Below, piece by piece: positions 15,530 through 15,664 of a DNA stretch of 24,940 nucleotides; within the stretch, counting starts at the first letter, position 1; every line of letters begins with the position of its first letter. The notes beneath the pieces are model-generated. The model searched no databases. It was not told the origin of the DNA and was given only the letters and a program-made list of their open reading frames with translations. The stretch lies in the IMG/VR virus record IMGVR_UViG_3300043811_000163, positions 88,534 through 113,473 of that record; one strand, written 5' to 3'. Position numbers and translations under genes: made by a program. The stretch comes from a virus.

Positions 15530-15664
15530 GCCGTCCGTAGCTCAGTTGGTAGAGCGGCAGAGGCGAAAGCCTTTCGTTCTTCAATCCCATGCTCGCGCAA
15601 GCGAGCCGCATGCGGAACGTTACCATGGATCTGTAGGTCGGTGGTTCGAATCCACCCGGCGGCA
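15530..15664 (+). ncRNA. tRNA-like RNA with long anticodon-arm insertion (Y-RNA candidate)
   Basis: The 5' half GCCGTCC plus TAGCTCAGTTGGTAGAGC and the 3' half AGGTCGGTGGTTCGAATCC are textbook tRNA. The acceptor pairs at six of seven positions with CGGCGGC. The anticodon stem GCAGA (15557-15561) pairs with TCTGT (15630-15634), but 68 bases lie between where seven belong. The insert folds: AGGC-GAAA-GCCT, and CTCGC-GCAA-GCGAG under a CATG/CATG step, framed by CGTTC/GAACG. Both inner hairpins have GNRA loops. It is too small for a group I intron. All 20 amino acids are already covered by other tRNAs here, so it is unlikely to be needed for decoding. Directly after Ro60, a Y RNA with a tRNA-like module is the leading idea. 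A tRNA with an unusual small intron is the alternative. Confidence 0.6.

Follow-up and report, generated by a model that had tools for sequence, protein, structure and literature searches.

A putative tRNA-mimic Y RNA with native part order and open acceptor beside a phage Ro60 gene

What is a tRNA-shaped element that carries a long structured insert in place of its anticodon loop, and why does it sit beside a phage Ro60 gene? The element in question (15530-15664) lies in the window, that is, the whole stretch of DNA analysed here, which covers positions 88534-113473 and forms the terminal 24.9 kb of a phage contig of 113,473 bases. Recognisable features include a terminase, a Mu-F-like head protein, a Ro60 gene and about 30 tRNAs. 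The element starts 169 nt 3' of the Ro60 gene, which encodes TROVE and vWA domains, and thus has the adjacency to Ro60 that is expected of YrlA, a Y RNA-like mimic of tRNA in bacteria (Chen et al. 2014, cited in PMC8394870).

The sequence-only reading had anticipated that an ordinary tRNA finder would fail at this locus, and it does: ARAGORN overlooks the element in a default run and mistakes it for 'tRNA-His(atg)' when introns are permitted. Rfam assigns it to tRNA (E 1.4e-4) over model positions 1-71 of 71, a full-span match that covers the D, T and acceptor-like domain also found in YrlA. In the Rfam search, the YrlA family (RF02553) gave no match to 15300-16000 at E up to 5, and its gathering score was accordingly not reached. 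Direct BLAST of the element against phage records returned tRNA-arm matches only, and the annotated phages I3 and Cashline show no Y RNA annotation adjoining Ro60. Because the tools used label such genes as tRNA or as intron-bearing tRNA, many genomes probably carry wrong annotations for them.

Table 1 Features of the element and of its immediate surroundings (window coordinates)
Feature	Position	Strand	Evidence
Ro60 (Rsr) gene	13718-15361	+	TROVE and Ro60 vWA domains; Pfam PF05731, E 2.9e-49; PF25045, E 8.3e-59
Entire element, putative native-order tRNA-mimic Y RNA	15530-15664	+	Leave-out model R2, 73.0 bits, E 1.5e-18; Rfam tRNA, 37.1 bits
Acceptor stem, 5' strand GCCGTCCG, T15534 bulged	15530-15537	+	Sequence
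D-arm	15540-15555	+	GCTC/GAGC at 15540-15543/15552-15555; sequence and Rfam tRNA alignment
Anticodon stem, 5' strand GCAGA	15557-15561	+	Pairs with 15630-15634; outer pairs covary in the family, 91% of cells paired
Extra GAAA hairpin, GGC-GAAA-GCC	15562-15571	+	Sequence; comparable GCAA hairpin at the same position in L002
Y stem, lower helix, 5' strand CGTTC	15575-15579	+	Pairs with GAACG at 15615-15619; in nearly every relative; covariation
Y stem, middle CAT and upper hairpin	15588-15606	+	CAT pairs with ATG at 15610-15612; GCTCGC-GCAA-GCGAGC at 15591-15606
Unpaired CG 3' of the upper helix	15607-15608	+	CG columns invariant in 33 sequences; C is the counterpart of the Y RNA bulged cytosine, the Ro60 site (PMC4030889)
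GTTAYC motif (GTTACC), closes the Y stem	15619-15624	+	Near-invariant in the 33-sequence alignment; GGUUAUC also in the Rfam RF01656 stem-bulge RNA
Anticodon stem, 3' strand TCTGT	15630-15634	+	Sequence
T-arm, GGTGG-TTCGAAT-CCACC	15640-15656	+	Sequence and Rfam alignment
Acceptor stem, 3' strand CGGCGGC, and discriminator A	15657-15664	+	Sequence; CCA not encoded
tRNA-Glu(CTC)	15670-15745	+	ARAGORN; 5 nt 3' of the element; dense tRNA array begins here

Most of the cloverleaf had been described correctly from the letters (Table 1). The D, T and anticodon arms stand, while the acceptor, previously given as six of seven pairs, is read from the sequence as seven pairs with a bulge, because T15534 is bulged and GCCGTCCG forms 7 bp with CGGCGGC (15657-15663). 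The anticodon-loop region measures exactly 68 nt (15562-15629), as had been counted, in place of the 7-nt loop of a decoding tRNA, and both GNRA hairpins reported within it, one capped by GAAA and one by GCAA, are real. The minimum-free-energy fold of the entire element differs from the cloverleaf.

Using the window Ro60 protein as query, we collected 80 loci from viruses and 80 from bacteria or archaea and searched these Ro60 loci with ARAGORN allowing introns and with a purpose-written scan for acceptor, D and T pairing. As the scan requires this pairing, independent evidence comes from the insert and not from the acceptor, D and T helices. Many loci have, at Ro60, tRNAs bearing inserts of about 30-60 nt, and about 38 elements in native tRNA order adjoin Ro60 genes in phages and bacteria (Sorangium, Minicystis, Kofleriaceae, Brocadia). 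The search for homologues next to other Ro60 genes, which had been proposed as a check, was thus successful.

The insert is conserved in sequence and in structure. Across 33 aligned elements, CG is invariant and GTTAYC near-invariant. The insert helices together with the outer anticodon-stem pairs are paired in 80% of the cells of the family alignment; for the upper Y-stem helix the value is 96%, and all 4 of its pairs show changes on both sides. Covariation is extensive, with 13 of 15 pairs changing on both sides and 78 double-change cells compared to 22 in shuffles, and the pairing score drops at every slide of the helix partners. MAFFT puts the lower stem out of register when given the insert alone. 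We also built a covariance model (R2) from 32 elements, leaving out the window and its nearest relative, L002. This model gave the window element 73.0 bits and L002 81.9 bits, compared to 51.7 bits for the best ordinary tRNA of the window. Under a loose definition (complete Y stem plus GTTAYC), none of 20,000 insert shuffles qualified; when GTTACC was fixed and the remainder shuffled, 267 of 20,000 (1.3%) still did.

A typical relative has an insert of the form CTTGCCC-loop-GGGCCGAAG, and the lower stem on either side, in most cases 5-9 bp long, stops at GTTAYC. The window equivalent of the upper Y stem, CAT-GCTCGC-GCAA-GCGAGC-CGC-ATG, is divergent in having CAT/ATG where relatives have CTT/AAG. 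The stem through which Y RNAs bind Ro60 has a highly conserved bulged cytosine, which is retained in bacteria (PMC4030889; PMC4726728). The invariant C 3' of the upper helix (C15607) corresponds to this bulged cytosine. The invariant CG, the covarying upper helix and the alignment of the insert by the leave-out model all agree with the Ro60-type stem and bulged cytosine of YrlA. The window Ro60 itself aligns end to end with the solved Xenopus and human Ro60 and with D. radiodurans Rsr, and it retains the histidine equivalent to human H187, a residue described as essential for contact with Y RNA (PMC4030889).

The order of the parts sets the element apart from YrlA. In many other Ro60 loci, the order is T-arm, acceptor hairpin with a short closing loop, and D-arm, with the Y-stem strands outside. 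Permuted RNAs of this type from Gordonia and Nocardia match RF02553 over its full length with 45 bits, the gathering score being 69, and their Y stem gives a match to the nematode stem-bulge RNA family (RF01656) as well. Scored with a profile built from 46 permuted elements (154 positions), the window element reached 26.1 bits unrotated and 53.9 bits once rotated, the latter over positions 11-139 of 154. The best rotated ordinary tRNA gave 19.3 bits, and 200 rotated insert shuffles had a median of 41.8 and a maximum of 49.8 bits, none attaining the score of the rotated window element; the Y strands contribute to the rotated match. The gain on rotation and the lower scores of the controls show that the window element is a YrlA-type RNA in circularly permuted form. 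Its 5' and 3' ends are not paired as a Y stem and its acceptor is not looped, and the end-to-end profile match is obtained only after rotation. On tandem native-order arrays, Rfam reports a YrlA match over the T-D core only, which any tandem tRNAs might give.

We read 15530-15664, with a probability of about 0.88, as a phage tRNA-mimic Y RNA with native tRNA order and an open acceptor that would act as partner of the adjoining Ro60; its architecture, conservation, covariation, linkage to Ro60 and permutation relationship are matters of observation. In common with YrlA (RF02553), it lies by Ro60 and combines a Ro60-type stem with a D-arm, a T-arm and an acceptor-like helix. However, the ends of YrlA are paired in the Y stem and its acceptor is closed, whereas the window element has an open acceptor, a GCAA-capped Y stem and an additional GAAA hairpin, and lacks an anticodon-like hairpin. 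The bulged-C stem is also common to the D. radiodurans Y RNA (RF01053) and to the animal Y and nematode stem-bulge RNAs (RF01656), the last of which have GGUUAUC beside it, as do related bacterial loci; unlike the window element, these RNAs are without a native tRNA body and follow another gene order. Ordinary phage tRNA genes share the acceptor, D and T arms and the position in a tRNA array, but have an anticodon loop where the window element has the 68-nt Ro60-type stem.

Association with Ro60 extends to the genome scale. When five bacterial genomes that carry native-form elements are searched with the leave-out model, its best hits fall at the Ro60 locus, and in Sorangium the sole other long match (4251864-4251997) lies less than 1 kb from the sole other TROVE gene. 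Native and permuted forms cluster on the Ro60 tree (9 changes compared to a shuffled mean of 25), a quick FastTree in which 79 rows are unlabelled for element form because the element finder is strict. The supported clade in which the window Ro60 is placed has 13 rows, among them Sorangium and Minicystis; 12 of the 13 have native-form elements.

Within the tRNA-mimic Y RNA, the tRNA body (acceptor, D-arm, T-arm) would constitute one half, and the Ro60-type stem with its bulged C and GNRA cap would take the place of the anticodon loop. Since 4-10 nt separate the elements from tRNAs at several loci, and 5 nt here, tRNA-processing enzymes probably cut its ends inside the tRNA array. The phage Ro60 ring may bind the Y stem, as suggested by the H187 equivalent, the linkage and the covariation. 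By analogy, the tRNA-shaped half could dock a tRNA-recognising factor, either a nuclease such as PNPase, with its Deinococcus precedent, or a tRNA enzyme, and the RNA might tether or gate Ro60 in RNA processing or decay during infection. The Deinococcus machine of Rsr, Y RNA and PNPase is a precedent for such effector tethering (PMC8394870). The acceptor of the described YrlA RNAs is closed, and this speaks against any action of tRNA-end enzymes on them. For the native-order Y RNAs we can only speculate, and rather doubtfully, that they mature by the tRNA route, with RNase P cleavage, 3' trimming and CCA addition, and that the free acceptor couples Ro60 to a protein recognising tRNA ends; forms with a U33 loop might even be aminoacylated and reach the ribosome, being tRNA and Y RNA in one.

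A different role would be that of an anticodon-nuclease decoy, a tRNA shape with no cleavable anticodon that absorbs a host defence nuclease while Ro60 merely stabilises it. A function as competitive inhibitor has been proposed for the tRNA-like domain of YrlA (PMC7790460), and the roughly 30 tRNAs of the phage are what would be expected if tRNA damage matters. Yet many relatives retain an anticodon loop, and the RNA is present in bacteria too, making this role improbable.

The sequence-only reading had left room for a tRNA with a removable insert, that is, a genuine tRNA with an intron whose removal restores a working anticodon loop. Among the relatives, 19 of the 38 native-form elements do have, around the insert, a full anticodon arm whose loop is 7 nt long (U33 in 18 of these 19), compared to a mean of 2.8 and a maximum of 10 in shuffles, and RtcB, a tRNA-splicing ligase elsewhere, occurs in some Ro60/Y RNA operons (PMC7790460). 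However, the same arm is found in 34 of 51 permuted elements, in which no linear-tRNA intron is possible. In the window, no 61-nt excision yields a 7-nt loop with U33, the second hairpin is also not present, and the insert is conserved as a Ro60-type Y stem. RtcB was not found on the contig of the window and is missing from 29 of 32 related viral records. Bacterial group I introns occur in tRNA anticodon loops and so resemble the insert in position, but the insert is only 68 nt long, matches no Rfam intron family at gathering level and leaves no restorable anticodon. Splicing of the element is unlikely, and an intron-bearing tRNA is a very poor description of the locus. The complete anticodon arm is missing from the window element, from its nearest relative (L002 9984) and from most Polyangiaceae elements; the window element and L002 instead have a further GNRA hairpin on the 5' side of the Y stem. 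The RNA thus seems to be derived from a real tRNA in which the Ro60 stem opened up the anticodon arm, and the clade of the window seems to have lost this arm.

That the element is a decayed pseudo-tRNA, a pair of truncated tRNA copies or an assembly error is scarcely credible: the acceptor has a bulged T, the anticodon is missing and CCA is not encoded, but a model built without the window still finds the element, and the architecture recurs with compensatory changes in dozens of independent loci, including independent contigs and reference bacterial genomes, which rules out the chance half-tRNAs and the assembly error that had been named as possible refutations.

tRNA-mimicking Y RNAs of phages and bacteria are already known, and the presence of YrlA in phages is repeated in PMC7765460. 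The literature searched, whose coverage did not extend to the primary Y RNA papers, contained no account of a native-order, open-acceptor Y RNA, and the topology may be novel. The open-acceptor form of phages and myxobacteria makes it testable whether Y RNAs originated from tRNA by insertion of a Ro60 stem, and renders the direction of the permutation and the binding partner of the tRNA half directly testable as well. In addition, native-order elements supply phage Ro60 genes with a concrete candidate partner RNA.

Several further observations were made at the related loci. Besides its element at L085 6004-6124, Sorangium cellulosum So0157-2 carries another native-order Y RNA (L178, 5865-5998, minus strand) with a CTCCTAA anticodon-like loop, beside a divergent second TROVE gene. 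A Ro60 contig binned as Bathyarchaeota, which could be mis-binned, has a permuted YrlA-type RNA (L097, 1121-1181). Two bacterial Y stems, L144 3855-3957 and L140 3714-3846, match nematode RF01656 including GGUUAUC, with 36.4 and 27.5 bits (gathering score 38), hinting at a deep kinship between bacterial Y stems and nematode stem-bulge RNA.

Elsewhere in the window, two HNH endonuclease ORFs lie within the tRNA array (13211-13603 and 17286-18209). Seven copies of a repeat with the core GCGCGCAGTGT are spread over 20944-24827 between small minus-strand genes (e.g., 22291-22324, 23120-23153 and 24037-24070), and this repeat is possibly a phage promoter or operator. A pentapeptide-repeat protein is encoded at 23170-24027, with a 15-nt period across about 500 nt. 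Finally, a 132-nt direct repeat of 98% identity (22306-22437 and 24809-24940), the second copy of which reaches the contig end, gives two minus-strand ORFs an identical N-terminus.
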